Shown: piece by piece, positions 1,519-43,673 of the stretch
How the letters are laid out: the number at the start of each line of letters is the position of its first letter
How positions within the stretch are numbered: the stretch's first letter is position 1
Assembly (NCBI RefSeq): GCF_026151205.1
Contig: NC_087072.1
Location: forward strand, 21,232,103 to 21,296,102
Reading direction: 5' to 3'
Length of the DNA stretch: 64,000 nt
Source of the DNA: Bolinopsis microptera
Taxonomy: Eukaryota > Ctenophora > Tentaculata > Lobata > Bolinopsidae
Translations under genes and position numbers: made by a program
Notes under the pieces: generated by a model
The model's database searches: none
Told to the model about the DNA's origin: nothing
What the model saw: only the letters and a program-made list of their open reading frames with translations

Positions 1519-1543
1519 ATGCCTAGCAACATGCCATCTTCAG
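1519..1543 (+). CDS. Candidate alternative first exon A of PKG
   Basis: A 25-nt segment runs from an ATG to a consensus donor (G|GTAAGA). It encodes MPSNMPSS plus one base, so it ends in phase 1, the phase needed by shared exon 2 at 32302. The upstream sequence is pyrimidine-rich and could be a 5' UTR. Unlike the other four candidates it lacks a basic cluster and is very short, so a chance match is quite possible. The role would be to give the kinase a distinct N-terminal tip. No transcript evidence is available here. Confidence 0.35.
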
Positions 1544-3688
1544 GTAAGAACTAGTTGTTCTAGGTACACTATTGTTGGTACATGCATTTTAAGAAACAGG
1601 ATTTCCACTGTAAATCCGTGAAGGTGGGCTTGATTCTTCGTCTTGTCAAGGACTAAGGTCTTATCCCCAATAGTTCCCACCCAGAGTAGGCGGAGTTCCC
1701 ACCCAAAGTAGGCGGAGTTCCTACTTGTTGTATATATTATCTAGACAATAGATCCGGAAACAAGCAGCCTCGACAACAACTCCTGGACCTGGTGCTCCTA
1801 CAATAAGATTACGATAAATATCATATAACAAAATATAAATTAGTCAATATAGTCGAATAAAGGGCGTGATAGAGTATTACTAGTAAAGTAGTAGTTAGCT
1901 TGGCGCCCCTCTTTACCCTATCACGAGTACGTCAGTACAGCTACAAGAGCGTGTATTAAGTCTCCATATCTTGCGTTCCATTTTATCAGAGGTTGATCAC
2001 TTTTCAGTTTGAATTTTAATCTCAAACACATTTTTCATTTCTGGCTTCTGCACCTTCCTGCGTATCCTCACACGATAAAACTATAAAACTATATCCTCTA
2101 TTATTCGTTAATCGCCTCTTAATGTCCAGTTGGTATTTTACCCACGCAGGTTCTTGACAGTTGATTAGGAGGATCCTCTATTCTTGAATTGTCGTAGTCA
2201 GCCAAGTTCTTGATCTCCCAGTATGCCTTTTAAGTTTTAGCCGACTTTTATTTTCTGATAAAAACGGAGTTTTAACCTGTTGTTAGAAAACAGAATAGTT
2301 TTAGTAATGAACCGCACAATGATTATTTTCAGTGTGTTGGATCTTCGTATTAGATAACCTTTGTAGTTTGTATGTAAAAGGCTTTTCGTCACAGAAACCA
2401 TGTTAAAGTAAGTCTAAACTGCAGACCATCCGGTAGTAGGTACGACCAGGCTGTAGCAGGTACGCCACTGCACAGCAGGTAGTAGGAACCTGATACCTGG
2501 CAGTGGGTACTATCTGACACATTCCTTTACCCTCCTCTAACAGTACAGTCACCTGACCGGCCATGTTAATAACTTAATTATAGGTGAAGTGTCCAACAAC
2601 CTCAGATCCAATCTAGTTCCCCTTCTTCTAATTACAACAGACCATTATCAGATTGGTACCGGGTTGGCGTGGAAATTAGGGTTCAAGAGTGCCAGCTACC
2701 CCTTGCAAATTAGGGTTCAAGACTGCCAACTGGCTGCAGGTCGGTACCAAGATGGCGTGGAAATTAGGTGTCATGAGGTTGACAACTATATGCAGGGAGG
2801 AGGGCCTGTGGAACGCAGATAGGGGGTATGGCTGTAGAGAGGTTTTTAACTTAACTACAGAGATCAGGGTTGCAGCTGCAATACAGGAGGCTCAGGGGGT
2901 ATCAATCTACGTGTGCAGCCGACTACGTTTGGCCAACTCTTTGTTATTAATATTTAATGAGCTGTGAGCACGTTCCCCGGTTCCCTGTGCAAGTTACTGA
3001 CTGTAGTAGTTACTAGTTAGGGTAATAACTAATATCTGGGACAGGCCCCTTAAGTGTTAAGACAGGAGTCATTAGAATTGCAATTGCTCTCCAGTATTTA
3101 TTACAGCTTCGTTATTATGGTATGAGGGGTGTTGCTGCTCACTGAGATTATAAAGCTCCATGTTAGGATGTTAGGTTGTAACTTCGTGGGTTGCTTAGCA
3201 ATACTTCGTGGGTTGCTAAGCACCTCGGTGGCTGTTTATCATTCAACTTTCGACACTTAATTCTCCAAGACACGACAACCATGCCTTTTTCGCTGTCATG
3301 TTATGACGTCAATATGTTAACTCATTTGACCCCCCAAGAAGTCTTGTGAAACGCTTTCAAGCTTGCGTAACCGGGTTACTATAACCCTTCGGGGTTTTCA
3401 TTTTGAAAGTTATGACTTGGCCAAACAACAGATTAGAGACGAAAAACATATGCCAAAATACCGGTAGAATAAAAATAAAAACATGAATAGTCGCAGTATG
3501 AGGTGAATAAAGTTAAGCAGATTGTTGTTACCTCAGGTTTGCCCGCTATACATACACATAACTTGTAGTTAAGATGAAAGCTGAGGGTGGGGGGCCAGTA
3601 GATGAGAATTGAATTACACCTTCAATGACAGGGTCAAAGCAGCTCATTCCATTTTCTGTGTATTCAGTACTCATAAATCAAACCTCTA

Positions 3689-3876
3689 CAATGCAACCCC
3701 TTCTATACGACCCCTTCTATACTACCCCTTCTATACGACCCCTTCTATACGACCCCTTCTATACGACCCCTTCTATACTACCCCTTCTATACGACCCCTT
3801 CTTTACGACCCATTCTAAACGACCCCTTCTATACGAACCCTTCTGTACGACCCCTTCTATACGACCCCTTCTATAA
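3689..3876. repeat. 14-bp minisatellite
   Basis: About thirteen copies of ACGACCCCTTCTAT with point variants. Open frames rich in Pro, Leu and Tyr over it are artefacts. Confidence 0.95.
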
Positions 3877-4372
3877 GTATACGGTACCGGAGGGAGACAA
3901 ATCAAGAAAGTGGTTTTGATTTCCCACGGAAAGGAAATTAAGTAACATACAATTTAAACATTTACATTGATAGCTCATAATTGTTTCACCGATAATACAT
4001 AATTATTTCCTAATTACCTCCCCACTATATTCTATAGTCCGAATGTAATGAAGGGTAACTGCTTATGGGGCTGTAAAATGAAGCAGATAGGTTAGTGGAG
4101 ATCTCTAATAGCCTTATGTCTGCTGATTAGTACTGATCAACAAAGGGAGACAGCTTATAATCAATGATCAGCTTTCATTTGTCGTGATTTATATTCCGTG
4201 TACGCATGCTTTTGATAACGATTCGTAGTCTTGCATCCGAAATTATCAAGAGTTATTTTTCGAAAAGCGATTTTGGTCAATGAGGGTCTGTTCTCTTTTA
4301 TTTAACAGTAAACGTTTTCTGAGTGGTCATTAGTAACATTTTCAAACCCCCACACGTACACACAAACGTAGA

Positions 4373-4510
4373 GTGACACACTCACACTCACAATCACACA
4401 CGATCACACACACCGCACACACACACGAACACTTACAGACCCGCACACACTCACAGACCCCCACACACTCACAGACCCCCACACACTCACAGACCCACAC
4501 ACACATGCTC
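4373..4510. repeat. CA-rich 18-bp tandem repeat
   Basis: Copies of CACACACTCACAGACCCC within a longer ACAC-rich tract. The 139-codon plus frame beginning in it is not a supported gene. Confidence 0.88.
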
Positions 4511-10319: not shown

Positions 10320-10377
10320 TCATCTCGACAACCGTGTTACCACGACAATCGTGTTACCACGACAACAGTGTTGCCGC
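10320..10377. repeat. 18-bp tandem repeat, three copies
   Basis: Units like CGACAACCGTGTTACCA, three imperfect copies about 470 bp upstream of the first-exon candidate at 10842. Confidence 0.75.
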
Positions 10378-10841
10378 AGTTACAATGTCTTAATGCTTTG
10401 CTTTCTTTCAAAGATGGCACTAAATAAGGAAATAATAAGAAATTAAAACTCCGATCATTAACCATTTAATATTAGAGTATTATGAATTAGACACAACGTT
10501 AACACCTTTTATCGTTAAACTGTTACTCGGCTCAGTTGCTTAAGAGCAAAGTTCGCCGATCATCACCACTTTATCATTTGAATTATTCATTTTGAACGCA
10601 AATGATGAGGTAGCTGAGATATCTAGCATTACAAAACTTATATTACTAGTTACTACACTTTATTACTACACTTTATTCCTAGCGTTACAGTTCTTGCTAC
10701 CCATTGTTTCAAACCCAGTTACTGTTGATACGATAATAAACTGTAAGGAGTTGACTTGAAATATGATAGGCTTGTTTGTATGTAGAACAGTGCGGAGAGA
10801 GAGAAGACACCTGTTAGCCAGTAGAGAACAACACCGTCATC

Positions 10842-10869
10842 ATGCCAATGTTCGGCAGCAAGAATAAGG
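10842..10869 (+). CDS. Candidate alternative first exon B of PKG
   Basis: An ATG is followed by nine codons (MPMFGSKNK) and then G|GTGAGT, a near-perfect 5' splice site in phase 1. Joined to exon 2 at 32302 it opens directly into the coiled-coil region of the kinase. The peptide is short, hydrophobic then basic, like exons C and E (Phe close to Lys). The ATG lies in a reasonable initiation context after a purine-rich leader. It has no second-position Gly, so N-myristoylation is not expected. The phase and consensus are seen directly; use as a first exon is inferred. Confidence 0.6.
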
Positions 10870-11170
10870 GTGAGTCTATGGTGATTATTTGCACTGATCT
10901 TAGTCAGTTGTTTTACTTCTTACAGCTGTTAACGTTCCTGGCTCCAAGTTATACATTTTCCATGAGTGAATGTTTTACTCTAAAACTTTGTTATTTTTCA
11001 ATTTGGAGTTGGATTATTTTGAGGAAACGATGTAACAGAGTCGATATATTTTAATGTTGCCATAGGGTGGCAAGTCCCCATACATCGTGGTCCGGTAGTT
11101 TCATTGCGTCTCAATATATGGGACAAGACAATTATATATTATATTATATTAATTATATAATAGACGCTGA

Positions 11171-11272
11171 AAATCCCGGTTTATTAGAAATTATAAATCC
11201 CGGTTTATTAGAAATTATAAATCCCGGTTTATTAGAAACTAGAGATCCCGGTTTATTAGAAACTAGAGATCT
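11171..11272. repeat. 24-bp tandem repeat
   Basis: About four copies of ATCCCGGTTTATTAGAAATT plus four bases, the last two diverged. It lies just downstream of first-exon candidate B. Confidence 0.93.
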
Positions 11273-12869: not shown

Positions 12870-13440
12870 CTGGGCCTGGTTGGCCCACGAGAGGATAGCA
12901 TATGAATGCTATGGCAGTCCTGTGGGAGGATGCCGGTGGAATTAAGATGCGTAGTCAAGGATGATGGTAAGCGTTGTGGGGTGTGTCATAGATGAACGCT
13001 TAAGTGGTGGTTGAGTGTGGAAGAGAGAGGCGAAACAAGACGGCGTTAAAATAGTCGCTATGTTACGCCTGTCTGGTCCAACTCCTCTGGCACAATTAAG
13101 CGTTTTGTGTGGTTTGCAAAGTTGACAATGGTGGAGATGTGTTGATTGTCGAATATGTCATTGACAGAGAGGTAGTAGTCCCGGAAATATTGACCTCTTA
13201 TTTGGGCAATAGCCGATTCACTTGTTAACTGAGGAAGGCATATATCTGGTTTAGGGCTCTTTCTATAGACTTGAATGCTACATTTTTGAAAGCCCCTTCG
13301 ACGTCTAAGAAGGTTAACCTAGAAGTAGAGACACCCCAAAGCTTATGATTGTCCGTTCTATTTAGTGTACATTTTTGTGTAGAGCTGTCTCAGTTGAGGC
13401 ACCTTTGACAAGACCGACTTGTATAACAGTTGTGCCCATG
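12870..13440 (-). pseudogene. Decayed non-LTR reverse transcriptase fragment
   Basis: On the minus strand, pieces of an RT domain can be read across several frames. GASTETALHK near 13400 matches the STETALH block before RT motif A. LTFLDVEGAFKNVAFKSI near 13300 is RT motif A with its Asp. A further open stretch (AQIRGQYFRDYYLSVNDIFD, EELDQTGVT) follows. In-frame stops separate them. The fragment lies in a PKG 5' intron. The clade is unclear; it differs from both other LINEs in the window. Confidence 0.6.
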
Positions 13441-13518
13441 GCACTAGCCAGTAGTTACGGGCCAGCAGTTTAGTAACCAGTAAACCTAGCTGAGACCATG
13501 CTATCCGGCTACCACAAC

Positions 13519-14182: not shown

Positions 14183-14333
14183 AAGTTTATTATACAAGTT
14201 TATCATTCGGGACGATGTTTGGTTCCGTTCTTGCATCCATGTTAATTGTTAAAGTGAGTATCATGTGATCCGCCCTCGTTTCCACCCTTGTGTCCTACGC
14301 CACCCTGTACTCCACCCTTGTGTCTTATACCAA

Positions 14334-15141
14334 AACATTTAAGGAGGAGTTAACAATAAGCTCAATACATGAACACAATGATTTTATTCTCGCTGGCTCC
14401 AATTGTGCTAATGTGCTTACTTTTTGCGTTTGGTTGGAAAAGCGGTCGACCGCTGCGTTAACCACTGCAAGTTGATCAGCCTTAAATTGGTCGGTTTAAG
14501 TATAAATTCGTTTTGAGTGCCTGCCAGCAATTTGTAAAAGTGCGTCACAGCTCGCGGGTGAACCATCTCCAGTATCCCGAAATTGGTTTATAAACTATTT
14601 CCATTCTCCTGAAACTAGTTTATCAATATAAGACCTGGTCTGCAGTCGAACACTCTTCTATCTTGTATGTTTTCTTGCGCCTTTAACACAGTCCTCTCTT
14701 GATTTGAGTAGCTTGTATAACATCAATTCACAGATTTACTGTAGTTTTCCTGTGTTTTACCTGTATGTGTCTCTGTTTCACGATCGTGATTGTCTGTCTT
14801 GCGTCTGTGTCTCTAGAATATACTCTACATCTTAATATAGTTCAATATTTTAACCTCGCATATTTATAAAAGGCAAATAATAATTGCTTTGTACGACCGC
14901 ATTGAAACTATTTCATTATAGAAATTAGCGCTGGTGTGATGTTTGAAAAATGTGCACTTTGTAAATTTACTTTATTTCAATATGCAGTTGTAAATACTTT
15001 ACAATTTTATAATCACATAAGTAACGTTTTGTTGTAATTGAATTTTCATAATTTAATGGACATAGCTTGTCGTATAATTGAATCGACTAAATTTCGATAG
15101 TGCAACAGTAGTATCTTGAATCTTAATAAATTTGCTGTGTA
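14334..15141 (+). repeat. Diverged duplication, second copy
   Basis: Second copy of the 13519-14182 repeat in the same orientation. It has about 140 bp extra in the middle (about 14640-14830) that the first copy lacks. There is no coding content. Confidence 0.8.
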
Positions 15142-16073
15142 AATCACATTTTAAATACCATTCACATATTTGAATAACATGGCTGGCAGTTGGTCGGTAG
15201 TATGACTGTAAATACAGAATAATGATTAATTATAGCAGCGGATAGCAAACATCGTGTTCAATGGGAGCCGGCACTCAACCAGTGACAAGCAATCTAACTA
15301 CACCTTCACTCTGAATAATATGCAGACGAAAGTTATCCTTTAAATAAATCTAAAATACCGCATCAAACCTTACAATCATTAAAAGGTGTGTTATATTTTA
15401 AAATATGCAGGCCGCAAGACATTCTACAAGTCACCTAATCTCAGATTCAGCTTGGGTTCACGTGACATTATGCGCTTTACAGTGCTGCATCACAAGACAT
15501 GTAGTCGTGAACAAGTAATAGCTGACCCATACATAATTAATAATTGTTATTTCTTCTTCCTTCACTGCTCTCAAATGAGAGTCCCGTAAATATTCTGCTT
15601 CCTTAACCGCACACCGACCCCTTCACTGTTTCCTTGCACAGAGTATATTAGTTGTATTTGGTGGTTGTCTTAGCTGTACTACTAATTCATAATGTCGTCG
15701 ACCTGGTCGTCTCTCCGATCATCTTTTATTGTTTTATTACAGCCTATACGGGGGTTTCGTCTCAACTGAACTGTTCTCTAGCTGTGATTCCCCCGCCCTT
15801 TCCTTTCCACCCCTCCTTCTCCGCCCAAAGTACATAAGGGCCCTTCGTACGTCAATATAATAGAGACTAGAGATCCCGATATAGCAACCAATTTCTCAAT
15901 ATTTGTAGGCCGCATTGTGCGTAGCATCCCTATTTGTAATAAATACTCTTGTTTCCGCGACGATCATTGTCACAATTTGTGCCGTCTCTTTCTCAGCAGC
16001 TCTCTCACTCACCGTCTCAGTCGTATTCACTTGCTTGTCTGTTGTGTCAAGTTATTGTTGTTGTTGCCATTTG

Positions 16074-16140
16074 ATGATGGTTCACATTTTCAAAGTTTTC
16101 CAAAAAAACAAGCGTCCGGAGGACGGGGACTTGCAGGAAG
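16074..16140 (+). CDS. Candidate alternative first exon C of PKG
   Basis: Two adjacent ATGs (16074 and 16077) start a 22-codon peptide, MMVHIFKVFQKNKRPEDG followed by DLQE, ending G|GTATGT in phase 1. The N-terminal half is hydrophobic and basic (HIFKVFQKNKR) and the second half acidic. It fits shared exon 2 at 32302 in frame. The HIFK stretch resembles GIFK in exon E, which supports common ancestry or common function of these tips, such as targeting the kinase to a membrane or partner. Splicing to exon 2 is inferred from phase. Confidence 0.62.
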
Positions 16141-19100
16141 GTATGTGTTGCTTTTACTGTGTGTTTCATACCAAGTGGTTAAGCAGGATCCTTTACATCT
16201 GTCTCCAGCAGGATCCTGAAGATTTGAGTCGACCCTTCCCCCCATCTGTTTACAAATAACTGAGAGGCCCTACCCCTCGCTAATGTTTACGAAGAAGATA
16301 CCTCCCCCTAAGGTGCTAACGTAGTAATTGAGACATATGCGTCATGTGAGGTGTGGTGAGAACTGCAATATTCTGAGGAATACTTGAAGTAGTCGCCACA
16401 TTAAGAGGTTATGTACTATTGTAGTTGTCACCTGGAACATCCTCTCTGAATTGACAGTTCTTGAATGCGATCAGGATAGGGTTAACATAAAGGCAACCTT
16501 TACAACAAGAGTAAACATATTGGCTTGGAAATTTTAACGTTGATTCTAGGCTTCGTTGGTGGGCAAGATTCATTACGCACGGATTGGATGATTAGTTGAA
16601 ACGGAGTCGTCAGAGCGATGTATTTAAACGCAAATTCGCTGGTGATTTGTCGCATTCTTAACCTGCTTGCAATTGAACAGACGCATTTTTTGTTCTCCCT
16701 TCACCTCTGGCCATTTCAGCTCTTTATCGAATGCTAGGCCCTGTCCCCCTTTTGTTCATCATGCATACTGCATAGCCATCACCATCCAAGAACCGTCCAA
16801 CAACCATCCAACCCATTAGTGAGCCGTCTCCCTTGCTTTAGGTCTGAACCTGGACCTGAAATGTTAGACATGCTCTGGCGATGTTAGGGAAGCTTAAACT
16901 TTTTTTCCAGAATTTTGTGATTGGCTTGCGTTCATGGTAATTAGGACGGTCCAAATAAGGAGCCATAATGCAGCCGTCTCGAGCGTTTAGCGAATGAAGT
17001 CTACAATGCGGTACAGGATGACGCACTTCCACTATACTCAACATTTCACCTTTGTCTTATACTAAGAAAGATGCACAAAAGTTGCACAAGCTGAGCTTAC
17101 TGACATTATAATAAGCTTCTGGAATACACAGCCCCCACTCATAATATCCAATACTTGACAGGGTACTACGTTGTACTACTTTGGATAGAGCTCCGGTATT
17201 GTGACAATGTTGGACTATTTCCCGAGAGGAACTCCTACATTTTATCTGTTATCACATTGTTCAGTCCACATCGAATATATTTAATTGCCTTTCAGCGTTT
17301 ATCTAGTAAAACTTTTAACATTGAAGTTGCGGGGCTAGCATGTGGACTATTTAAAACATTCCCGTCTACATTTGGTGTACATCTCTTCTGCGATATAACA
17401 TATTTTGCTAGCATGTGTTTTTGTTATTATATTATATGTTATCCCAACAATTTCAAGTGCAAAAACATCATAACTGCAATGCGGCAAATATGTCGCAAAT
17501 GTTTCAACCCCGTTAGAGGTAATAGCATTGGAATTTGGATCATAAGTAGAAAGTGACACACGTTAAACTGTTCGTGAGCCACATGCATTTCTCGGAATTA
17601 AAGAAATCTGGAAAGAATGACATTACAAATGAGTGGGGAACGGTTAAAGTTGGCTCTGTTGGGAGAAAGCTTTTATCTCTACTTTCACATAGTACCTTGT
17701 ACCTACTCTACAAGGACACTGTCCATGTTGACGAGAGTGCCTACGGCATGACATAATTCAACATAATTCAACCTCACTAATAAATATAAGCTGCTCCACT
17801 TTATGATCATATTAGGGATATTATCAGTGCTCCCAGGTCAGTCAGTACTAACTTTCAGATGATATGTATCTGTTTAATCGATATAGCCAGCTTGCATCTT
17901 GCAATACTGATTGTACCTATATATTATGCTTGTTTCCATGAATTACACCGAGGTCGTAGAAGTATAAGCTGGTTTAAACATATTTGTTAAAAGGAAGGTT
18001 AGACTTATTGTCGTTATACCTTTGGTCGCTCTGTGCTAACTCTGCAGCCGGCCTTCATTCGGTAACTTTCCTTCGCCTTGCTAATGCTATTCATGGTCTG
18101 TTGCAGTCCTTTCCTGATAGTTTCACCCGTTTAAAAAGTAGTGCTCAGCTAAGGTTTATAAATGTGTCCATTTTAAACGTTGCAGGTAAAGTCTAACGAT
18201 ACTAATTTTCGGAACATTTTATTGCAGTTGGTCATTTTTTACCGTGTTGCTTAACTTTTTTGCAAGATTGGGAAGCAGACGATTTTTATTTATATCTTAA
18301 TTAATGCTCTTTGTAATCAAATATGTCTCGTATTTGAAACTCCAATCATATACGTCTCGTATTTGAAATTCCAATCATTTCGTATTCGAAAGATTTTCTT
18401 GGATTTTGTCAGCGTATCAGAGTACTTGATTGTGCTGCTACAGTTACTGGTACTCGTGACTGTATGATATTGGAAGTTACAACACTCGTGCGTCCAGTGT
18501 GAAATACCTCAGCTACGAAAACTTTCGTCGCGAAAATGTTTGTCAAAATAAGCGTTCAGAATTATAATTTAGGGCTGAGTATGGCCGCACATGCCCAATT
18601 TAACATTAAGCCGGCATAATAAGAGCTGAGAGGGTAATAAAGTTACATTTTTGCCATTTTTGTTCAGTCGCGCCCTTTTTATTGTAACCTGTTAGCATTA
18701 CAACAATCGAATACAGAGGTTGGTTAACTTCCGATCAGAATTTTATTGACTTTGATTATCAGTCGCAGCTGAGAGGAAACGCCGCATTCTTTGTGTGGAC
18801 AAAGGACATCTATTCTTAGAAATTAACAATAATGACTTATCAGTATGAATAATTGGCATCATCTCAGTAATTACAGGATACATTGTAAGTCTCAGCGAAG
18901 AGTTTGTGGGTACCGGGTGGGCGAAGAGATGACTGTTAGCTTGTAGAGATACTGATATAGTAAATACTATATATTAACTCAGTCAAGAAAGTCTTGGCCA
19001 ACAATTTAGTCAATAAAGTCTAAACTTATCCAATGTAGGTGCTCCAACCTATAACGTATAACGTAGTCGTTACCTTGACTACAAAGTCGTTACCATGGCT

Positions 19101-19816
19101 CCGTAGTCGTTACCACATGAAATAACAGTTCCCTCCTCAGCACTGCAATCATTACTTCGTGTACTCACATTGCCTTTATTGTGCTGCTCATTGTTGTATT
19201 ACTCTTTACTGTACGAGCTTGTATAGCCCGGACTGTCCTCGTCACTGAAAGAATAAAGTGTAAACTATCCCTACTGAGCCCGTTATAGCCTGGCTTATAG
19301 CTGGCCTCTCATTCAGCTCCACGCATTGGTTGTGCGTGCTTCCTCCCAGGAGCCACTCTGTACCAATTGCTCGGAATTTGGCCTGGCGGTTCTAACTTGT
19401 AGCTATAACTTTGTACACAAAATTAGTTAAATAGCATTCCTAGCTAGTCGGATCATAGCTGTACTTCCTCATTGCTAAATATCAACACTTAGCTTAGGCC
19501 TCCATACCACTGCGCTCTCTGCTTACCTCTCGTCACTTTTCTATTTGCCAGAGTGTAAAACCATAACAGTGCGCCTAACTTACCCTACTTTAGTCTGTGA
19601 GCCTGAAGGCGGAGACATCTCTAACTGATTGCACACGTGTCGCCCAAAGTGATCACATAATTATGAAATATTATTTTGCTCGCACATCCTATTTTTGATT
19701 AAGTAAACAAAGTGTAAACAGCACATACCCACTATCATACTGACAGTGTGTGTTTGTACAAGGGATTGTGCTTTTAGTCACCACATTTGAAGCTTGTCTT
19801 GTTGCGGAGGAGGACG
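16141..19816 (+). other. Non-coding stretch between first-exon candidates C and D
   Basis: No domain-bearing frame is seen. The longest frames (133 codons at 17155-17556 on the plus strand) start without support and have AT-driven composition. Promoter activity for exon D would be expected near the right end, but no clear TATA-type element was fixed. Confidence 0.55.
18303..18380. repeat. Short direct duplication
   Basis: Two copies of about 36 bp containing CGTCTCGTATTTGAAA and TCCAATCAT, plus a partial third. Confidence 0.75.
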
Positions 19817-19916
19817 ATGCCTATCACCAAGCTGAAGATTGGTAAGAAGAGCAAGAAGGACAGCACCAAGGAGAGTAAGAAAACTAGTGATGCAGCAGGC
19901 AGCAGTAAAGGGTCAG
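19817..19916 (+). CDS. Candidate alternative first exon D of PKG, lysine-rich
   Basis: A 100-nt segment begins at an ATG after a purine-rich leader. It encodes 33 codons, begins MPITKLKIGKKSKKDSTKES and ends G|GTGAGA in phase 1. About a third of the residues are Lys. This is the longest and most clearly coding of the five alternative first exons. The Lys clusters (KLKIGKKSKK, KESKK) could bind acidic lipid or act as a nuclear localisation signal. Joined to 32302 the frame continues into GAGQVGNG and the coiled coil. A longer reading upstream would need a TTG start, so the ATG at 19817 is chosen. Confidence 0.7.
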
Positions 19917-22242
19917 GTGAGATACATTTAATCAAAGTGCGGCTCCATAAAACACCAAGCTTAGTTGACACTCTTTTTGACACAATGTATACACGAAACG
20001 ATGAAATGGCAAATGTTAATAGACCAGTTTATAATTCCCTATTAAATGGTCTCTAATCGACGGACAAATGTTTCGTTTTGTTGTCCCGGGGCTCTATTTT
20101 AGGGTTGAACAGTTTAGTCCTTGTTCTTGTTACTGTCAGACACTCATACCATCTGGAGATGCCCTGTTGTTAGGCGCTCATACCATCTGAAAATTTGCTA
20201 CGCCCTGTTGATCGTTTAGCCAAGCGACTAGATTCTAAAAATAAATAGTCTTCATCGAATTGGGTAGAAGATCAGTTTCTTTGTTTACTTATTCAACCTC
20301 GCTTGTCCAATGTCTAAAGCCTTATCAAAATTACAACTCTACCGGTACTAAGATTCTGATCAATTGCAGTTTTATCAGCAGTTAATTGGCAGCTTATATG
20401 GAGGTTCATTCCCACAGCTATACTTGTTCTCTCAATATGTTTTGGGTCGGGGGGCTCTTTGGAGCCCACAAAACACCACCTGACTCTCAGTTGTGCCAGA
20501 GCTAGAATATATCAGCTACGAGCCCCAGGTGCCCGCCACTCGACCACTTACATAATCCTGTAATGATTGAGATGTTGCCGACATTTTAGAAGCCATGTGA
20601 TCTGCCTAATTTGGTATTGCATAACGAGAAACGTCTGAAGCGTTACTGGGTGTTTAAGAAATTTATGACATCATAAAGATGTTTTGCTGGAGGTATTTAA
20701 GCTGCCAACCAAATTTTATGGCTTTTTCGCGGGGGTTTTTTTTCAAAAAATTTATAGATTCTAAGAAATAATTTTTTGTTTGTTTCATATTTTAGTGGTT
20801 ACTCAAAAACTTAGAATCTATAAAACTTAAATACTTTAAAAGGTGAATCAGAAAAAATTAATGGTCTCTTCACGATTTTTTTTCATACTTCCGTGGTTAT
20901 TCAAAAAAATATTAATCTAAAAATCTCAAAAATTTAAAAGCTTTAAAAGGTGGATCAGAAAATAGGCTTTTTAAGTTCATCATAAATGAGAATCGATGAT
21001 CTAAAAGCTTCAAATTATAATGATCGCGTAACAATAAAAGAATACATTCTACTATAATCTTGAGCAACAAAAAAGACAGTCGATTATTCAACAAGAATTG
21101 CACGGTGTTCGTTCTTAATATAGATCTGATCCTTTCGGTTTTATTACACTTTGTTCGTTAATATTGCAAGAGAGTTTTGTGGCATCACACAGGCTCTGAG
21201 TGCCCAACTTCTACAGCATTTGTTATAACTTATAAACAGACCGCTGTTGTTCTGTGCTCTGTTAATTGCGATAGACTATAGCAAATTGGAAACTTTTAAG
21301 CAGAATTATCAAATGTTTAGTTTATAATGTTAAACTATTTCGGTTAGATATTTTAAGTCCTAGAGTTTAACATTTCTGCCGACAAATTGTCAACCGCAAT
21401 ATTAAAACGAGTTAAAAATAGATTGTAAGATAATTTCCTTGGTAGTTCGTGTCTTCAAGTAGTGTGAGTCATAAAGCTTGGTATTTTGCTACAGTAGCGA
21501 AACATGTGACTACTGACTAGTTGTAGTGTTTGCTGCTCTTTAGTGCGAGACACTTTGCCGAACTGCACAAAGTAATCTTGTGGTTTTCTGTCTGTCTTGT
21601 CAAACTATCAACGTTTGTGTGTCTTAGTGCTCTATTAGAGTATTAGAGGGGGTAGGTACTGTTGTTACCATGGTGACGCAGGTACAGCTGTTACCATGGT
21701 GACGCCACCGTGCTCTACCCCCCACTTACGCCAACCCCTCACTTCTTACAATCAACAATGGCACCCTCCCAGTAACCAGAACATTGCTGTCTGAAGAGCA
21801 TGTCTTTAGTAACTCTGATGATTGACGCTCAGTGTTCGACTAATTATCGGCAATTAATTATATGGGTCTGAGAGAGCTGCAGATGACGTTAGTTAGTTAG
21901 TGATACACTTTAGTCGCAGTCAGGATGGTAACAACATCTAATTTAGGAGAGGGAAATGGTACAGTGTGTTATTACAGTTGTTATGGAACACCATACAGAG
22001 GAACACTAACCCCATATTTTGATACTGTCCTCCTTTTTTTCGTTCACTGGATCATTGGTTGTCAGTTAGCTCACGTGACCGTTGCCAGGGAGATCCTGGA
22101 GCGTTAGCATGGAAGTACAGTGCACCTACAAGGCAAAGTGGCCTTGTTCTTGCTAGGATGGTCGCTTATTCCTTACAAGGGCAAATAAGAGCTTTATATA
22201 AAGCAATTACAGTATGAATTGGCTTCGTGTGTGAGTGGTGGG

Positions 22243-22243
<1 letters not shown>

Positions 22244-22301
<58 letters not shown>
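22244..22301. repeat. (GA)n microsatellite
   Basis: About 28 uninterrupted GA units. Confidence 0.98.
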
Positions 22302-22303
<2 letters not shown>

Positions 22304-25290
22304 TATGTCATATATAGAGTTATATAGCTGTTATGTCCCGGCAGGTTATACTGCCTGTATTCCTTGTACCGTGTATAACCCGCCTAGTTTCCTCCCTGAC
22401 ACGTGCCCTGTACAGTGTTCTGACCTTGTAGCCTGCAGCTCTCATCATTGTCATTCCTTCTCCGTCTGCTAAAATTACAGTACATTATTGCTCCTTCATA
22501 AATTTATTGCTGCTATAATATGTTCCGCTGCAGCCACAGTTAGTTCAGAGCCATTGCCTCAGATTTGTCTAAGCTATAGCAGTTGTGACCTGCACAAATG
22601 GTCTATTAGTTGCAGCTTTGTTGCCGGCGCCCCATATTATTCAAGTTCACCAGTGCTCTGACGTGGTGTTGTCAGGAGTTGCACTCCTCATTATTATATA
22701 AAGGAGATTGTTCTGCTGCTCAGAATGTTGTACATTTCTCTGACAGCCCGTACTACAGGGTTAAAGGTTATATACCCTTATAGGGTTAGCTTGTATAGTG
22801 TGCCTAGTGATCATACGCTTGGGATTAGGCCTCTAATACACAGATCCTTGAATATGACGTCGTTCGAGCATTGATGATATCGTGGCGATGTCCTTAATTT
22901 TTTTTGGAAAACAAATAGAATAATATATAACAATATAATTTACAACAATGTATATCGACAAGATTTGAATCATCAATTAATTGAGTCCATGGGACTCATA
23001 ATTAGCTAAGCTTTGATACAAATTGTTCTTCTGCTCCTTCATAAATGTCACTTTAAATCCTTAAAATATAGAAACATGGTATTGCGAATGTAGCCAATAA
23101 TAATATATGCCTGTGGTTTGAGATTAAGATGAATGGCAATAAACTGACCCCCTGTGTGATTAAACTTTAGCTTCTCCTTTTTCATTAATCTTTCTTCGCT
23201 AAAAGTAAACTTATTAAAGCTGTTCAAGTAAATCACATACAATTTACAACCATCGACCACAGTCATGTGCCCATATTTAGACTTATGTTCAGTTTTTTGT
23301 TTTATGAATATTGAACCTCCTACATGTAATAAAATTAGGAATTTCATCACTCATGTCTAAACCAAATTTATCTAAACTGTCTGTTTCTTGTGCCTTAATG
23401 TTTAGGTGAAACTAAAATATTGGCCTACCTCCAAACGAAAAACTTAATGACAATGCTGAATCTCTTCAAATTTCAGTGCAAAATGTCACCTTGAAGCGCC
23501 AATATTGAAGGTGTGGGGTTAATAATCTAGTTTATCGAGCAATTCTATTATCCAAGTAATCCAGTTCGCATGATCCATGAAATAACGTTTAGTGGACTTG
23601 CCATCCCTAACACCCTAGTTGGGTAGAATGGGGGAATTGACATTCGATCTATCTTTGGTCACTTGCAAGTCATATATATATTATATATTATAACCAACAT
23701 TTTTGGTTTACAATTTCATATCCAAAACCCGGTAGAATGTAGAAATTTTGAGGTGAATTTTGCAAACATTCAGAGAAATTTTCATAATATTTCATAGGAA
23801 TTAATGAAAGCAACTAAAGTGCTGACTTATTGATTCCTCAGTCAGGATCCCTGATCATATCAATCATTTCACGACAAAGTTTTTGTATAGCTACAAATGC
23901 ATCATAACCACAACAAATCATATTGAATATTTGTCCATACTGCTTCCTTCACCAAATCCCTTACCTTATTGTTATAGCTTGAAAGCAAAATGAGAAGTAA
24001 TGAGAAAACATTTATGCCAAAATTATACAATTTAACCACGATATTTTCAATCAACGTCATAAAGGATTGCATCTCCTCGATTTATAAATGATGTAATAAA
24101 CTTTATATACCATTATCCCACCATGAATCAAGGGAGCATAATCCCTAAAGTATTTGTCCGACCTGTCAAGGAATTGCATTGCACATTTTGTCCCGCCTTG
24201 TAATGTGACGGTCACCTGACCTTCTTGTAAGTGGTCTTGTGGCTCCTAATCTATAAGTTAGTACTGCAGTATATTATTGATTTTCTGTTTGTGAACTATT
24301 GCCAATGACTCTTGCCTCCAAAATACACTACATAGCCTCGTCACACTGCCCCTCACCCAGGATTCCACCCCTTCACTAACTCCTAACTCACAATCACCCT
24401 TCCTTTAACATTACCCCTCGACAACACTGCCTCCCTGCCCATCATTAACCACAGTAATATGACCTTATAAAATGCAAGTTGCAACCTACACTGTTGTTAG
24501 CTAGAGCTATAGTATGTAATGGTCCGCACATAGGACGGGTCCTGAGAGAGAACGGGTTATTGGAAGGACGGGGATTAGTACAAGGCGAGTGACGTACACT
24601 GGGAGTTGACGTAGCGCGCTCTGTGGTAGCATTTAGAATTTGAATCTACGTCAAACTTCCTGCACTTCCACTCTGAGAGTTAACCAGTATCATTTACCGC
24701 AATACCATTTCATAAGTTTCAAAATATACGGCTTCGAGTTACTATGCTATCAAGTTACCTTGCCAAGTTACCTGGCAGTGTCGGGGTAGTTAGGGGGGGT
24801 TAACAATCCTGGCATTCATACTCCCCATCTTACAGCACTCCTTCCCTCATTTGCCATTCATCCTCATTCCTCTACTCGCAAGTTTACATCTTCAGATATT
24901 TCACAGGATAGGCTCTGCAATCTGCATGCTTACAAGCTTACATATTTGATGGGAAGTTTGCTGGGCCTACTATATAGTAGTTCGTGACCGGCCGCATTAT
25001 GCCGAATATGCACCCTCTGTGTTTGGTCTGCATTACCCCAGGAGTATTGTAATATTTCAGATAGTTTTGGTATGACAATATTATGTTTGTGACATGTTTC
25101 TATTCATTAGTACATCTGGAAGTTTCGTGATCGCTTTGTGATCTCATTCTCGCAATTACGCTGTCATTGTTAAGCAGATAATAGTAACAGCTAGGTACAT
25201 TGTGACTAGAACCGTAGTAGGGCAAGCTACCACCCTCCAATTAGGCATAATAGTGCACTCCGCAATCTGCATACCGCACATTGCATAGGT

Positions 25291-25303
25291 AACACACACA
25301 AAT

Positions 25304-25356
<53 letters not shown>
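25291..25356. repeat. (CA)n microsatellite
   Basis: About 25 CA units with a short interrupted left end. Open frames rich in Cys and Val on the minus strand derive from it. Confidence 0.98.
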
Positions 25357-25361
<5 letters not shown>

Positions 25362-26429
25362 CACGTGCTGCTACTGGGACAATGATCTGCCTTTTTGGGC
25401 AAACACTCGCCAATCGAATTAGATGTTATTTTCGCAAACACGATGAAAGCGTTGCCTTGTTTGATGACAGATGAATGTGGCGTTTGACTGATTGCCTGAC
25501 CAGCCACTTTGCCAGACAATTTGCTGATTCACCTAACAATGATCATTTGCTGCCTCCAGATCAGTTCCAAAGCCTATTCAAAGTTGGGTATTTCTCTTTC
25601 TTGTTGTCGGTGTCCTGAGTCATGGCTCCACCACTGATTTGTCAAGTTTCTAAGGCTCCAGAGTCTTAGCTAAGATCCGCTAAACGAATACTGTCACTTG
25701 GACCAGCCCCAGCGTCCTGGCTGACACTTTGTACAGCATCTTCAGCCCCAAATTCCGGTCTCTTTTTGGATGTCATTGGGGTGTTTTCTATTGTAATTCA
25801 GTGCTTAATATAGCTGTTATATGTGTGCGAAGGAAGGTTATTTATAGGTACTTCCGAGTGTCGGACCTGCTCTCTGGTATTGATAATTCTTGTATTGTCT
25901 GAATTTGCACAGCAGCTGTCGTCTGGTTGTCTTCTAAGATTGTGGCAAATTTCGTGCTAATTTTTGCAGAGGGACTTTTGGTTTGCCATACCGTCGAGAA
26001 ATAAATTATTCATAGAAATTTGCATAGTTTCTATATGATGGTTGCGCTCAAAGAAACTCATTAACCTTCGTTCGCGTGTGCTAAATTTTGACGCGTTTAT
26101 TCCACACGAAATTTTGCGGAACATAAAATTCGAGTTTTAGCAGTATAACCAGTTGAGTTTTAACAATTTAACCAGAGAAGACTGCACAGTGATTAGCATT
26201 TGCACTCAGTACTACCACACCTGCTCACCTTCCAGCCTTCCTACTGGCTGAGAAAGAAACGTGCATAAATAAATTAGTCAATTAGTGGCTTCCGTGAGCC
26301 CAACAGCGAGACACCGCCACACACCAATGCTGCCTGGACTTGATGCTTCTTGATTTACCAGCTTCTCATTTTATATCTACTCTCATTATATCGTATCTTA
26401 TCTAATGTCGTATTTTTTCCATATCATAT

Positions 26430-26550
26430 CTTGTCCGCTCTCATATCTTGTCCAATCTTATATCTTACCTAATCTCATATCTTGTCCCATCTTATATCTT
26501 ACCTAATCTCATATCTTGTCCCATCTTATATCTTACCTAATCTCGCTTAT
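26430..26550. repeat. 34-bp tandem repeat
   Basis: About three copies of a unit with CATATCTTGTCCCATCTTAT and ATCTTACCTAATCT, fading into pyrimidine-rich sequence. Confidence 0.88.
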
Positions 26551-26766
26551 CGTTTCTCATATCTTCAGTTATTCTCTTCAGTTCATCTTTCCAATTAAAC
26601 TAATACCCCCTCCGTCCCATACCAAATATCTGTCACCACTCAATATCCTTTACCTCGTCTTTAACAGTATGTAACTGGTTAGCTTACATAAAATATACTT
26701 AGAATTTGACTTGAATTCATGTAATTACTTAACATGATAGCAATACTGACGTAGCGTACTGACTGA

Positions 26767-27663
26767 GCTGCAGGCAGCGACAGTAGCCGTCCAATAGAGT
26801 ACCTGAGCTGCAGGCAGCACCAGTAGCTGTTCAATAGAGTATCTGAGCTGCAGGCAGCACCAGTAGCTGTTCAATAGAGTATCTGAGCTGCAGGCAGCAC
26901 CAGTAGCTGTTCAATAGAGTATCTGAGCTGCACGCAGCGACAGTAGCTGTTCAATAGAGTACCTGAGCTGCAGGCAGCGACAGTAGCTGTCCAATAGAGT
27001 ATCTGAGCTGCAGGCAGCGACAGTAGCTGTCCAATAGAGTACCTGAGCTGCAGGCAGCGACAGTAGCTGTCCAATAGAGTACCTGAGCTGCAGGCAGCGA
27101 CAGTAGCTGTCCAATAGAGTATCTGAGCTGCAGGCAGCGACAGTAGCTGTCCAATAGAGTACCTGAGCTGCAGGCAGCGACAGTAGCTGTCCAATAGAGT
27201 ACCTGAGCTGCAGGCAGCGACAGTAGCTGTTCAATAGAGTACCTGAGCTGCAGGCAGCGACAGTAGCTGTCCAATAGAGTACCTGAGCTGCAGGCAGCGA
27301 CAGTAGCTGTTCAATAGAGTACCTGAGCTGCAGGCAGCGACAGTAGCTGTCCAATAGAGTACCTGAGCTGCAGGCAGCGACAGTAGCTGTCCAATAGAGT
27401 ATCTGAGCTGCAGGCAGCACCAGTAGCTGTCCAATAGAGTACCTGAGCTGCAGGCAGCGACAGTAGCTGTCCAATAGAGTATCTGAGCTGCAGGCAGCGA
27501 CAGTAGCTGTCCAATAGAGTACCTGAGCTGCAGGCAGCGACAGTAGCTGTCCAATAGAGTATCTGAGCTGCAGGCAGCGACAGTAGCTGTTCAATAGAGT
27601 ACCTGAGCTGCAGGCAGCGACAGTAGCTGTCCAATAGAGTACCTGAGCTGCAGGCAGCGCGTC
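26767..27663. repeat. 40-bp minisatellite
   Basis: About 22 tandem copies of a 40-bp unit containing GAGCTGCAGGCAGCGACAG and CTGTCCAATAGAGTA, with few point differences. Because 40 is not a multiple of 3, all three minus frames read as 120-bp-periodic open frames (up to 227 codons). These are repeat artefacts, not genes. Confidence 0.97.
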
Positions 27664-27998
27664 AGTAGCTGTTTAATCACTCCACAGAGTAGAAAGCATT
27701 TTCCATCACACATTGTGCTTGTGTGTATGTGTCAGTGTGTATTGCATATTCGGTCCGAGACTGCGGTATTTTATTAAATTTCTCCGGCATTTCTTGTCTT
27801 GGTTAGCCATGTTAGTTATATAGAGGCTTCCGTTAAACGGGCAGTTTAGTTCATTTGTGTGTAGTATCTGCTTGTAATTGCGATATTATCTCTCTGTCAT
27901 TTTGTATCTACTTATAATATCTACAGTGTGCATGCTCCAACCGCACAGTTAGTCCCTCGAGTGTATTTTACTTTGGTCATGTTGTGAACAAATCAACT

Positions 27999-28041
27999 AT
28001 GAAGCTCTTGGGGATTTTCAAGCGGAAATCAAATGAAGGCG
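27999..28041 (+). CDS. Candidate alternative first exon E of PKG
   Basis: ATG plus fourteen codons (MKLLGIFKRKSNEG) end at G|GTGAGT in phase 1. It is the candidate first exon nearest the shared body, about 4.3 kb upstream of exon 2. With it the kinase would be 775 residues, close to the length of other animal PKGs. The peptide is an amphipathic hydrophobic-basic tip. Residue 2 is Lys, so myristoylation is not expected. The segment sits directly downstream of the 40-bp minisatellite at 26767-27663. Confidence 0.72.
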
Positions 28042-28999
28042 GTGAGTATATCGTGGAGGCTTTGTTTTTTGAAAATTCATTTTATTTGTCGAAAAAATCG
28101 GGTTCTTTGTTTAAAAGTATATTGTAGATAGCATCATATTTAACTTATAAATATCAGACGTCATGCAGCGCAAATCATTTTCTGCTTCCGATTCCTAACC
28201 AATTATAAGCTGGCGCTCAGACACGACACCATTGACGTAAAGTATGAGTAACTTTGCTGACGTCACCAATCCATTGTTACTTTCAATCATTCGGCCTATT
28301 TTTCCAAGACAACTTGTCATCGTCATCTTGGACCAGATCGTTGGTTTCCAAAGATAGCGAAAAAAAATATTGAAAGGAGCAAGATTACAAGTCTAGTTTC
28401 AGAGCTACACGTACATGATTCTTCTCCCTCAAACATTGTAACAGACTTACTAAGTAGTCGGTGGCTGTGTAGATTTCACAAATATTTACAGAGATTTTTT
28501 TAATTTCTTAGTCAAGCCAATACAAGGAATGTTAGAATTTAGACTCTGACATCAAATTTTTGTAACACTGAAAAACAACTATCAACACATTTTGTTTCGA
28601 ATCTAAGCCCTCAACACATATGTCTATTATCGAGAGTGAGCTATAATTTCGTCCCTGCATGTAACCTGTAAAATTGTAAATCATAATTCCTCTCGCCTCC
28701 TATACAAAATATGAGGAGAGCCGCGTCAAGAATTCGGTATAATGTACGAATCACGCATACCTATCACACATATGCATACCTATCACACATATCCCTTCAA
28801 ATATCAGAAACACGTCCAATACATAGTTTGTACAATAATGTGGTGTACCTGTACTGGTGTTATTTAGTAACTCACATCTACAAACTCACACTTTTCAAGA
28901 GTTGTAAAATGTTCCCAAAACTGAATGAATATGAATGATGGCCAGAACAGAGCTCGTATTTAAGGTTGTAAATGTGCCATGTAGCATGTCATGATACGG

Positions 29000-29172
29000 T
29001 CCAGTGCCTCAAGTAACTGGAGCGTATCATACCTCTACCCATACCTTCCAGTGCGTCATCAAGCTAACTGAAGCGTATCAATTATCTTACGTAATCTCAG
29101 ATAAGTTCCAGTGCCTCAAGCTGCGGCAACTGGAGCGTATCATACGTCATCTCACGTACGTTCTAGTGCCTC
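29000..29172. repeat. Degenerate ~65-bp tandem repeat
   Basis: Three imperfect units, each with CCAGTGCCTCAAG or similar and ACTGGAGCGTATCAT. Confidence 0.75.
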
Positions 29173-29429
29173 GTTGCGGCAACACAGAAAAATTAGGAGC
29201 AAGTCAGAAGTTGCTTCCTTGTGGTGTGAAGTTGGAAGCTATAGAGCGTATTGTGGACATTAATTACTCTATACAATGCAGCCCGAGCCGAGTACACGGA
29301 ACCCGCACATACTGCGAATACCTACTAGGTCATTAGTCCAGACCGGAATAAACACCAACAGTTTGTTTGGTCAACCCAATATTCCTCATTAGAACTGACA
29401 GGACAAATGATATTATAATACTCAGCTAT

Positions 29430-29556
29430 GCTACACTCGGCTACTTGGCCAGGGTGTTGCTGCTACACTCGGCTACTTGGCCAGGGTGTTGCTGCTACAC
29501 TCGGCTACTTGGCCAGGGTATTGCTGCTACACTCAGCTACTCGGCCAGGATGTAGT
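29430..29556. repeat. 32-bp tandem repeat
   Basis: Four copies of GCTACACTCGGCTACTTGGC plus CAGGGTGTTGCT, the last one diverged. Confidence 0.93.
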
Positions 29557-30092
29557 TGCTGGATAGTGCATTTATTCCTTAACTTCAGGCCTAATTAAAT
29601 CTAATCAAAGCGGCACATTAATTCAGATGTGTGTCAGCGGCACAATTTAATCCAAATTGTGAGATGAACAAGATTGAAGATTAGAGCTGGTATAATGATA
29701 CTACAAAGTAGTCTTCTCGCCAATTAGCTCCAAATACAATTAGCTCCAAATACATTCACTTTGGAGAAAGGGCAATATCATCTTATACTCTTTCTTCTAT
29801 ACCCAAATTAATCTTAAATACTACAAGATAAGTCAACTATTAGCCGAAAAAACGATTGAAAGACCGCCTCTACTTTCTCTCAGGCAAATTATCTTTGTAT
29901 GATTTTATCCCAGTATAATAATTGTTGTCTCACTGTACACCAGGTATATACCAACTAGAGAAGGTACTATATATAATCTGAGTACACCTCATTGGGTAGG
30001 CTAACATTTACTGGAGTGTACAGACATGAGGCATAACTAACATATGTTTGATAATGATCTACTGATTATAATTACTTATTATCTTGCTATAC

Positions 30093-30984
30093 GATACACC
30101 TACCTGCTGCTTCACTCTCAAGAGGAGCATGCCTGGTAAGATACACCTACCTGCTGCTTCACTCTCAAGAGGAGCATGCCTGGTAAGATACACCTACCTG
30201 CTCCTTCACTCTCAAGAGGAGCATGCCTGGTAAGATACACCTACCAGCTACCTGCTGCTTCACTCTGAAGAGGAGCATGCCTGGTAAGATACACCTACCT
30301 GCTGCTTCACTCTGAAGAGGAGCATGCCTGGTAAGATACACCTACCTGCTGCTTCACTCTGAAGAGGAGCATGCCTGGTAAGATACACCTACCTGCTGCT
30401 TCACTCTGAAGAGGAGCATGCCTGGTAAGATACACCTACCTGCTGCTTCACTCTGAAGAGGAGCATGCCTGGTAAGATACACCTACCTGCTCCTTCACTC
30501 TGCAGAGGAGCATGCCTGGTAAGATACACCTACCTGCTGCTTCACTCTGAAGAGGAGCATGCCTGGTAAGATACACCTACCTGCTGCTTCACTCTGAAGA
30601 GGAGCATGCCTGGTAAGATACACCTACCTGCTGCTTCACTCTGAAGAGGAGCATGCCTGGTAAGATACACCTACCTGCTCCTTCACTCTGCAGAGGAGCA
30701 TGCCTGGTAAGATACACCTACCTGCTGCTTCACTCTGAAGAGGAGCATGCCTGGTAAGATACACCTACCTGCTGCTTCACTCTGCAGAGGAGCATGCCTG
30801 GTAAGATACACCTACCTGCTCCTTCACTCTGCAGAGGAGCATGCCTGGTAAGATACACCTACCTGCTGCTTCACTCTGAAGAGGAGCATGCCTGGTAAGA
30901 TACACCTACCTGCTCCTTCACTCTGCAGAGGAGCATGCCTGGTAAGATACACCTACCTGCTGCTTCACTCTGAAGAGGAGTATA
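30093..30984 (+). repeat. 47-bp minisatellite with repeated ATG and splice-site motifs
   Basis: About nineteen tandem units of 47 bp, eighteen with an intact GAGCATGCCTG|GTAAGA core. Each unit has a pyrimidine-rich run ending in CTGCAG or CTGAAG, then 13 nt, then GTAAGA. This reads as acceptor, micro-exon and donor in the PKG direction. It lies in the intron before shared exon 2. Units differ by few bases (GAAG or GCAG or CAAG; CTGCTGC or CTGCTCC); one has a 7-bp insertion. Confidence 0.95.
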
Positions 30985-31885
30985 CCTCGGTCCTCGTGCG
31001 ATATAATAGGGACGGTTAAACATCCGAACCAAGCTATAAATTATCATGTACAGTTATAAGAGTTGAGTTAGTAGCCCGTATACAATACTAACTAGCCTCT
31101 TCACTATCTATAACGATCATTTGGAGAATTTACTGGAGATATATACTTTTTACACGCAGAAAGAAATGAGCATGTAGAGGAAAATAAGAGTAACAACAGA
31201 CTGTTTTTACTATGTTTTCAGCATGTACAATCTTCACTTTTTATTATGTACGTTTTGAACTATTTTTAATGACTCGTACACCTGAACGTGTATAAGTTAC
31301 AGCGGTATCAACAATGTGACTGCACAAGAGAGTCCCTCTTTTGAATATATAATTGAGAAAGCTCACTCTGCCTCTGTGTAAGTATGTATATAATTACACA
31401 AAGCATCGCTTTATTACATTACTGTGCGAGCAGTACACCCAATTCAATATTAGGACGCAGAGGTCCGTGTAATATAATTAGACTATTACTACTTACAGTA
31501 TAATAAGTTACAGTTATTACTTACAGTATTGTTACTCACATTATTATTATTTACTGCATCATTACTTACAGTAAAAGTACTTACAAGCTAACTGCTTACA
31601 GCTATTAGGCTGTTAACTGTCCACTGGCTTGTCTTCGAGCTTGTCTACCAGCACGACTAGTCTACCATATGTTAGAAGCAGACCTCTCTTTAGGCAGACT
31701 GGTTTAGCACACTACACTTTACACAGAACAGTACTGAGCACAGTGTCCGGTTGTAGTTAAGTCTGGTAAATGTGACCAGACATATTCCCGTGCTGCACAG
31801 CTGCAGGTCACGTACTGTTCATTGTTAGAAGAAAGACTTTCACTTCTATTCATACTAGTCTTCACCGTAAAAGCATATAGTTCAT

Positions 31886-31943
31886 AGCAGATTAGCAGAT
31901 TAGCAGATTAGCAGATTAGCAGATTAGCAGATTAGCAGATTAC
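31886..31943. repeat. 8-bp tandem repeat
   Basis: About seven copies of AGCAGATT, about 360 bp upstream of PKG exon 2. Confidence 0.93.
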
Positions 31944-32301
31944 TAGATTTGTAGATGAATAGCTAGTGCAGTAGCTACAGACTTGGAAACACTATAAATG
32001 GGATATGCTATTTTACTGAGAGCGAGAAGAATCTAATATTGTTTGTAATTTGAGAGTGCATTTCATGTAATTCTAAAATTGTGTAAAGTGGAATTTAATT
32101 TTCACACGTTTTTTAATCCACGTGAAGGTCATAAAGTCATCAAACATAAAGTCATCAAACTAAACCGATCATCGGTAAAATACTAAGTATTTAATCAGTG
32201 GAAGTATATGACAAAGGTGATTTGTTACACAGACCCTCTTGAGTAAACTCAAAGTATTTAAAATAATTACCAAGCCAGACAATAATCCTGCCTTTCTTCA
32301 G

Positions 32302-40147
<7,846 letters not shown>

Positions 40148-43332: not shown

Positions 43333-43673
43333 TCTATTTATCTGAGGACCCCAGGCTTTAGGGGTCGTTCGCATATTACGTAATCAATATTTTAGCCATT
43401 TTTACCCCCCTCCCCCTTCCGTAATCAACCATAATCTAAGACCCAACCCCCCCCCCCCCCCTCCTGACAGCAATATTACATAATCATGGCCTGACCCCCC
43501 CCCCCCCCCCCCCCCCCCCCTTGACTTTTTTTCCTAGAAAACACTTTCTCTACGTTTCATGCTACCCTGATCATTGATCATGTTATCATGATGAGCCGAA
43601 TTGAAATCATTGTTATGATATCCGGCCAAGCACCTTCTAAACTACTTACACAAGTGGTTGTACATTATCTGAA

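Follow-up and report, generated by a model that had tools for sequence, protein, structure and literature searches.

Where does the protein encoded by a cGMP-dependent protein kinase (PKG) gene of the ctenophore Bolinopsis microptera begin, and does it have one beginning or several? The gene lies in the window, by which we mean the whole 64-kb stretch of DNA that was analysed (C1:21232103-21296102, C1 being contig NC_087072.1). Positions follow the numbering of the window unless prefixed C1, and genome searches covered the 264.65-Mb assembly of 232 contigs. Upstream of the kinase body we find seven segments on the + strand that open with an ATG and run in phase 1 into a splice donor. Judging from the genomic sequence, we put the probability that at least two of these seven candidates truly serve one PKG body as alternative first exons at roughly 0.6. 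An earlier note on this DNA had likewise proposed several alternative first exons for a single kinase; this remains the best reading, but its argument from chance proved weaker than supposed and its members are of unequal standing.

The gene encodes an intact kinase of the PKG I type (foraging/PRKG1-like). It was modelled with 15 shared exons (32302-40147, + strand) and 14 GT-AG introns, giving a product of 757 residues (including the glycine at the junction) that carries tandem cyclic-nucleotide-binding domains and, behind them in the same polypeptide, an AGC kinase domain. The best solved relative is human PKG I beta, to which residues 127-757 align (E 3.6e-238). In a Pfam scan of six exon frames, two exons matched cNMP_binding and two others Pkinase, with no match in exon 2 and in the exon at 33763. 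Ahead of the first nucleotide-binding domain, coiled-coil-like sequence and a segment of autoinhibitory type were recognised by eye. The body is arranged as follows:

32302-32481, + strand: shared exon 2, with phase-1 entry; the coiled coil or zipper begins here (named by eye)
32639-33606, + strand: exons 3-4, with a second coiled-coil-like segment and an autoinhibitory-type segment (named by eye)
33763-35646, + strand: exons 5-10, with two cyclic-nucleotide-binding domains (Pfam matches in 2/3 scanned exon frames)
37520-40147, + strand: exons 11-16, with the kinase domain and the C-terminus (last residues GWDADF)

Exon 2 follows the acceptor ttcttcag/GAGCTG at 32302, and its reading frame is secure because of the 15-exon model and the alignment with PKG I beta. 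Read upstream in frame, the sequence runs into a stop at 32283 with no ATG in between; a start ahead of the zipper therefore needs a phase-1 exon elsewhere. Frame and stop together confirm the phase-1 entry that had been claimed for exon 2. Processed copies keeping the spliced junction were also considered, and none was found, since exon 2 matches the genome only once, at its own position. Between exon 2 and the nearest recognisable upstream genes (cathepsin-L-like frames, named by eye, ending at about C1:21212326) lie some 52 kb, referred to below as the territory.

Five candidates stand inside the window, on the + strand where the earlier note had placed them. Their lengths (25, 28, 67, 100 and 43 nucleotides for A to E) all equal 1 modulo 3, so that each leaves one spare base before its GT, and their donors are, in order, GTAAGA, GTGAGT, GTATGT, GTGAGA and GTGAGT. 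The same scan run on the 20 kb upstream of the window yielded two more, F and G:

1519-1543, + strand: candidate first exon A, MPSNMPSS plus a spare G, donor CAG/GTAAGA
10842-10869, + strand: candidate first exon B, MPMFGSKNK plus a spare G, donor AGG/GTGAGT
16074-16140, + strand: candidate first exon C, MMVHIFKVFQKNKRPEDGDLQE plus a spare G, donor AAG/GTATGT
19817-19916, + strand: candidate first exon D, MPITKLKIGKKSKKDSTKESKKTSDAAGSSKGS plus a spare G, donor CAG/GTGAGA; the most secure
27999-28041, + strand: candidate first exon E, MKLLGIFKRKSNEG plus a spare G, donor GCG/GTGAGT; the weakest
C1:21230900-21230984, + strand: candidate first exon F, MSLKKGNSTKIPTTNKKLPKLPKLPESS plus a spare A, donor CAA/GTAAGT; 1.2 kb before the window
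C1:21220122-21220188, + strand: candidate first exon G, MGCSQSRNAKYKPQQDQDPNDP plus a spare G, donor CAG/GTAACG; 12 kb before the window

Joined to exon 2 in silico, all seven (7/7, A-G) read open across the junction. The plurality of candidates in the earlier note thus stands, and the set may be larger than its five, as F and G lie outside the window. The 5' region of PKG also carries two minisatellites that flank E, at 26763-27672 (40-bp unit x 22.7, 96% matches) and at 30093-30987 (47-bp unit x 18.9, 95%), the second of which yields false donor-linked frames in naive scans.

For the class as a whole, ATG-led segments of every phase and of either strand were scored with donor, codon and start-context terms after masking of tandem repeats. 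The DNA scanned comprised the 52-kb territory and ten 10-kb control pieces, one from each of ten other contigs and all from one fixed position. At a score of at least 6, the + strand phase-1 class counts 7 segments in the territory, whereas the five remaining classes count 2, 2, 1, 1 and 1; with the 100 kb of control DNA included, 1.46 are expected (P 0.0008). Enrichment is also seen at cut-offs 4, 5, 7 and 8 (P 0.035, 0.003, 0.005 and 0.02, respectively). In the 32.3 kb inside the window, four segments (A-D) have a donor score of at least 5.9, where the other classes and the background predict 0.64 (P 0.004). The coding p values, combined by Fisher's method, come to 0.0016 for A-F and 0.0046 for A-E. 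Some of the control segments resemble real exons by eye, which works against finding enrichment. Overall, + strand phase-1 segments as a class probably exceed chance.

The individual members differ largely. We think that D is a real first exon: it ranks first among the 268 segments of the masked scan, and both its codons (p 0.004) and its content of lysine and arginine (p 0.008) are unusual. Real first exons are probably also found in C, B, F and G. Candidate C ranks 8/268 when its start is taken at the second ATG (16077), with a coding p of 0.044 and a hydrophobic moment p of 0.052; it has 4 basic and 4 acidic residues (Lys+Arg p 0.17). Candidate B ranks 11/268 by combined score (coding p 0.12, Lys+Arg p 0.23). 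Candidate F, with the start context acaacaATG, is lysine-rich (Lys+Arg p 0.041; coding p 0.046) and ranks 27/268. Candidate G, at rank 26/268 and with ttcag six bases before its ATG, begins MGCSQSR (MGCSQSRNAKYK), an N-terminus of the myristoylation/palmitoylation type: after the initial Met-Gly, position 6 is taken by a small residue (or Ser/Thr) and a cysteine is close by, and acylation is predicted. By a PROSITE-style myristoylation pattern, G is the one segment with such a start in the donor-linked set of 268; of 3238 open starts led by an ATG, counting G, 25 agree with a loose pattern and 2 with MGCxx[S/T].

Candidate A is a possible first exon, with the highest donor score of the window's five (7.15). 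It ranks 57/149 in the unmasked scan and has no score in the masked one, probably because it overlaps a 12-bp tandem repeat (1511-1535) and was masked. As a first exon E is uncertain (donor score 4.0, rank 79/268, coding p 0.19, Lys+Arg p 0.054). Except in C, the base at -3 relative to the ATG is an adenine in every candidate, i.e. in A, B, D, E, F and G (a plain count). The basic character that had been ascribed to four of the tips is borne out for D and borderline for E, but B and C are not unusual. The odds that all five candidates of the window are true are low.

A number of observations weigh against several first exons. Scored by donor only, the class is marginal over the 52 kb (P 0.069, 0.068 and 0.042) and falls to P 0.15-0.20 once D is left out. 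In 60 second-order Markov sequences the mean counts at the 5.9 and E donor cut-offs are 0.62 and 2.5, and the maxima (4 and 8) equal the counts observed. The cut-offs were all picked after viewing the data, and this PKG gene supplied part of the training data for the donor and codon models; for both reasons the P values are soft. Among the members, E and, on coding grounds, A are at chance level; A has no basic residues (Lys+Arg p 1.0) and a coding-codon p of 0.70. The coding term of F is 2.2 under a first codon model and about zero (0.1) under a second, and the donor of G is weak (score 2.5). Two other + strand phase-1 segments that are absent from the earlier note, 12930-12966 (MPVELRCVVKDD) and 4048-4090 (MKGNCLWGCKMKQI), rank 18 and 19/268, above F and G, and the likewise unlisted segment 12906-12966, which overlaps the former, has a coding p of 0.040 in the test applied to A-F. 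The 12930 and 4048 segments were not promoted to candidate exons, because nothing beyond the scan score backs them; their ranks show how soft the lower ranks are. Nor do the flanks of the tips share an exact upstream word beyond chance.

A related gene counts on the same side. Queried with residues 1-423 of the PKG body, the genome gave, in addition to this gene, two matches (52-53% identity) at C1:24.27 Mb and two weaker ones at C1:2.63 Mb and C2:6.54 Mb:

C1:24269900-24285000: second PKG-like gene, about 3 Mb from the main PKG on the same chromosome

Its zipper exon has ATGs of its own (MVNSAAMGDKDRRI) and its next candidate exon holds a poly-glycine run; no tips related to A-G were seen at this gene. 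Its start thus seems to lie within that zipper exon, and an arrangement with multiple first exons therefore does not appear to be common to both genes.

Some of these observations also favour the alternative that survives best, i.e. that a single first exon (most likely D) is followed by an ordinary long first intron and that the remaining ATG-led segments are there by chance. D is far ahead with a score of 21.0, against 9.3 for the next + strand phase-1 segment, and enrichment by donor alone depends on it as described above. At the donor score of E, moreover, 8 segments are seen in the 32.3 kb where 4.1 are expected (P 0.06), a count that the Markov sequences also reach. However, when codon and start-context terms are added the class is still enriched without D (P 0.013, 0.004 and 0.024 at cut-offs 5, 6 and 7). 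The coding p values of C and F (both about 0.045) and the myristoylation-type start of G speak in the same direction, and we consider a single first exon unlikely, if clearly worth keeping in mind. The contention that repeated matches by chance are improbable thus holds moderately (P 0.0008-0.07, depending on score and cut-off), but is tempered by the Markov maximum, which matches the counts, and by E, which is not distinct.

A second alternative accepts the tips as real and concerns the way in which they are chosen. A spliced leader is found on 56% of Hormiphora Iso-Seq reads, which is a lower bound, and ctenophore mRNAs are often trans-spliced (PMC8527503); therefore alternative leader acceptors could do what the earlier note ascribed to separate promoters, the tips being selected by trans-splicing onto one or a few long precursors. 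A good 3' splice site is indeed present 77 nucleotides before the ATG of C (p 0.019), and another 98 nucleotides before that of A (p 0.083). Compared with random ATGs, upstream acceptors over all tips reach a Fisher value of 0.075, with C alone distinct: those of B, D, F and G are no better than at random ATGs (p 0.34-0.87; E 0.20), and two ATGs intervene between E and the best acceptor ahead of it. Competition would also be expected from cis-splicing that joins one tip to the acceptor of another further downstream. The published end of the Hormiphora leader, with 3 mismatches, gives 4 matches here against 1 control match and is uninformative; AATTTGAGGT was sought in the window and had no match. 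Selection by leader acceptors is somewhat less likely still than a single first exon.

As to other genes in the territory, three + strand frames from C1:21212103 to exon 2 gave no Pfam match over the cut-off, hence no other known + strand domain competes for the tips. The same read-through recovered kinase and nucleotide-binding matches in two frames of the PKG body; the final 74 codons of the neighbouring gene went unflagged, and short or uncharacterised nested genes may escape it. Matches to TetR_C_14 and DUF3915 in 14901-29898 stayed below their cut-offs and were judged chance. That some tips are parts of small genes lying within the intron of PKG, or exons of the 5' untranslated region with translation from the methionine at 32352 in exon 2, is improbable: nested intronic genes number hundreds in Hormiphora (PMC8527503), a Pfam scan can overlook short exons and the in-frame ATG at 32352 has a purine at -3 and a G at +4, but no + strand Pfam match over cut-off lies in the territory, an out-of-frame ATG of similar context (32320) precedes it and the phase-1 excess is left unexplained.

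The tips themselves do not look like copies of each other or of repeats. The flanks of all seven have one genome match each, their own position (in a search that skips simple repeats and very common words), and with every flank unique in the genome an origin from dispersed repeats was rejected. Exon duplication was considered as well; the flanks are without clear similarity to each other (best E 0.15).

If at least some of the seven are alternative first exons, as we favour, the locus might work as follows. Several alternative first exons, which from G to E occupy about 40 kb, would each splice in phase 1 onto exon 2. The kinase body including the zipper would be constant, and variation would be confined to a tip of 8-33 residues in front of the zipper. 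The choice of tip could be made by different transcription starts or by different spliced-leader acceptor sites. The polybasic tips D and F may direct the kinase to acidic membranes or other anionic partners, and the hydrophobic-basic tip C (and E, if real) to membranes; the MGCSQSR tip of G might give a myristoylated and palmitoylated membrane form, while A and B would leave an essentially soluble kinase. The sequence establishes the segments and their phase, the intact PKG body, the lack of a second copy of the tip flanks and, moderately, the enrichment of the class; we infer transcription, splicing, acylation and targeting of the tips, the last being specific to each isoform. In its fullest form the proposal is that some seven first exons are interchangeable and act as an addressing code, with dual-acylated, polybasic, hydrophobic-basic and soluble tips on one unchanged dimeric kinase; this is tentative, and doubtful in such a full form.

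Each element of the proposed arrangement has a precedent. The Drosophila foraging gene is likewise one PKG I-type gene whose transcripts differ at the 5' end only, with four minimal promoters, four start sites and 22 transcripts; its alternative N-termini, however, are long (215-560 residues), and some are without zipper and autoinhibitory segment (PMC10299703). In the ctenophore gene, zipper-like and autoinhibitory-type segments are located in shared exons and only the candidate tips of 8-33 residues would vary. Vertebrate PRKG1 yields PKG I alpha and beta from one gene with the N-terminus as the sole difference, but does so through two alternative N-terminal domains of 89 and 104 residues with the zipper inside them (PMC10299703). 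In the ctenophore gene all forms would share the zipper, behind one of up to seven short candidate tips.

The catalytic chain of protein kinase A (PKA) has no cyclic-nucleotide-binding domains. Its genes PRKACA and PRKACB similarly join short alternative first exons, of which human PRKACA has two and PRKACB four, to an invariant exon 2; one of these 5' exons has a myristoylated start, and they are very diverse in invertebrates (PMC5526564). Apart from being another kinase, PKA differs in that its 5' exons are backed by transcripts and conservation (PMC5526564), whereas the ctenophore tips are candidates read from the DNA sequence. Toxoplasma also combines a dual-acylated membrane form (PKG I) and a cytosolic form (PKG II) on one PKG body, and 15 N-terminal residues suffice for membrane placement; its cytosolic form, unlike the forms proposed here, begins at a second downstream methionine instead of an alternative exon (PMC5414004). 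A constant zipper with only a short tip changing in front of it would differ from all of these systems.

Alternative N-termini are a known route to different places and partners of PKG, and in foraging and PRKG1 it is the whole zipper-bearing N-terminal domain that varies (PMC10299703). If our reading is true, a constant zipper with swapped short tips, one of them of the acylation type, would separate addressing from dimerisation, and it would point to an ancient origin of placing cGMP signalling by means of isoforms. Vertebrates divide membrane and cytosolic PKG roles between PRKG2 and PRKG1. Should the addressing code hold, these two roles would be combined in one locus of a ctenophore, i.e. 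of a candidate sister lineage to other animals. The effector side of nitric oxide (NO)/cGMP signalling in ctenophores looks little described: under that wording, a search of open-access literature joining 'Mnemiopsis' with 'cGMP-dependent protein kinase' returned a single paper, by its title on luciferases, and 'PKG' and 'protein kinase' are absent from the main text of a paper on ctenophore NO (PMC10073611). Literature on alternative first exons of cGMP-dependent protein kinase, on ctenophore alternative promoters and on foraging promoters held, in its titles and the starts of its abstracts, nothing on this locus. Chromatin profiles of the ATAC-seq or H3K4me3 type exist for Mnemiopsis (PMC12221973).

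Elsewhere in the assembly, a search for COX1 gave no match. A nuclear-receptor zinc finger likewise had none, which is no more than suggestive because the control genomes lacked matches too. The surroundings of the gene are of some interest as well. Just upstream of PKG, the cathepsin-L-like cluster extends over C1:~21196650-21212326 on both strands and consists of four long single-frame open reading frames (about 470-530 codons from stop to stop; family assigned by eye) and one broken pair. Past the 3' end of PKG, the region 43641-48618 contains a Cys/His-rich, CCCH-like frame (44153-44746) followed by an open reading frame of 892 codons (45943-48618), which by eye resembles a non-LTR (long terminal repeat) retroelement.

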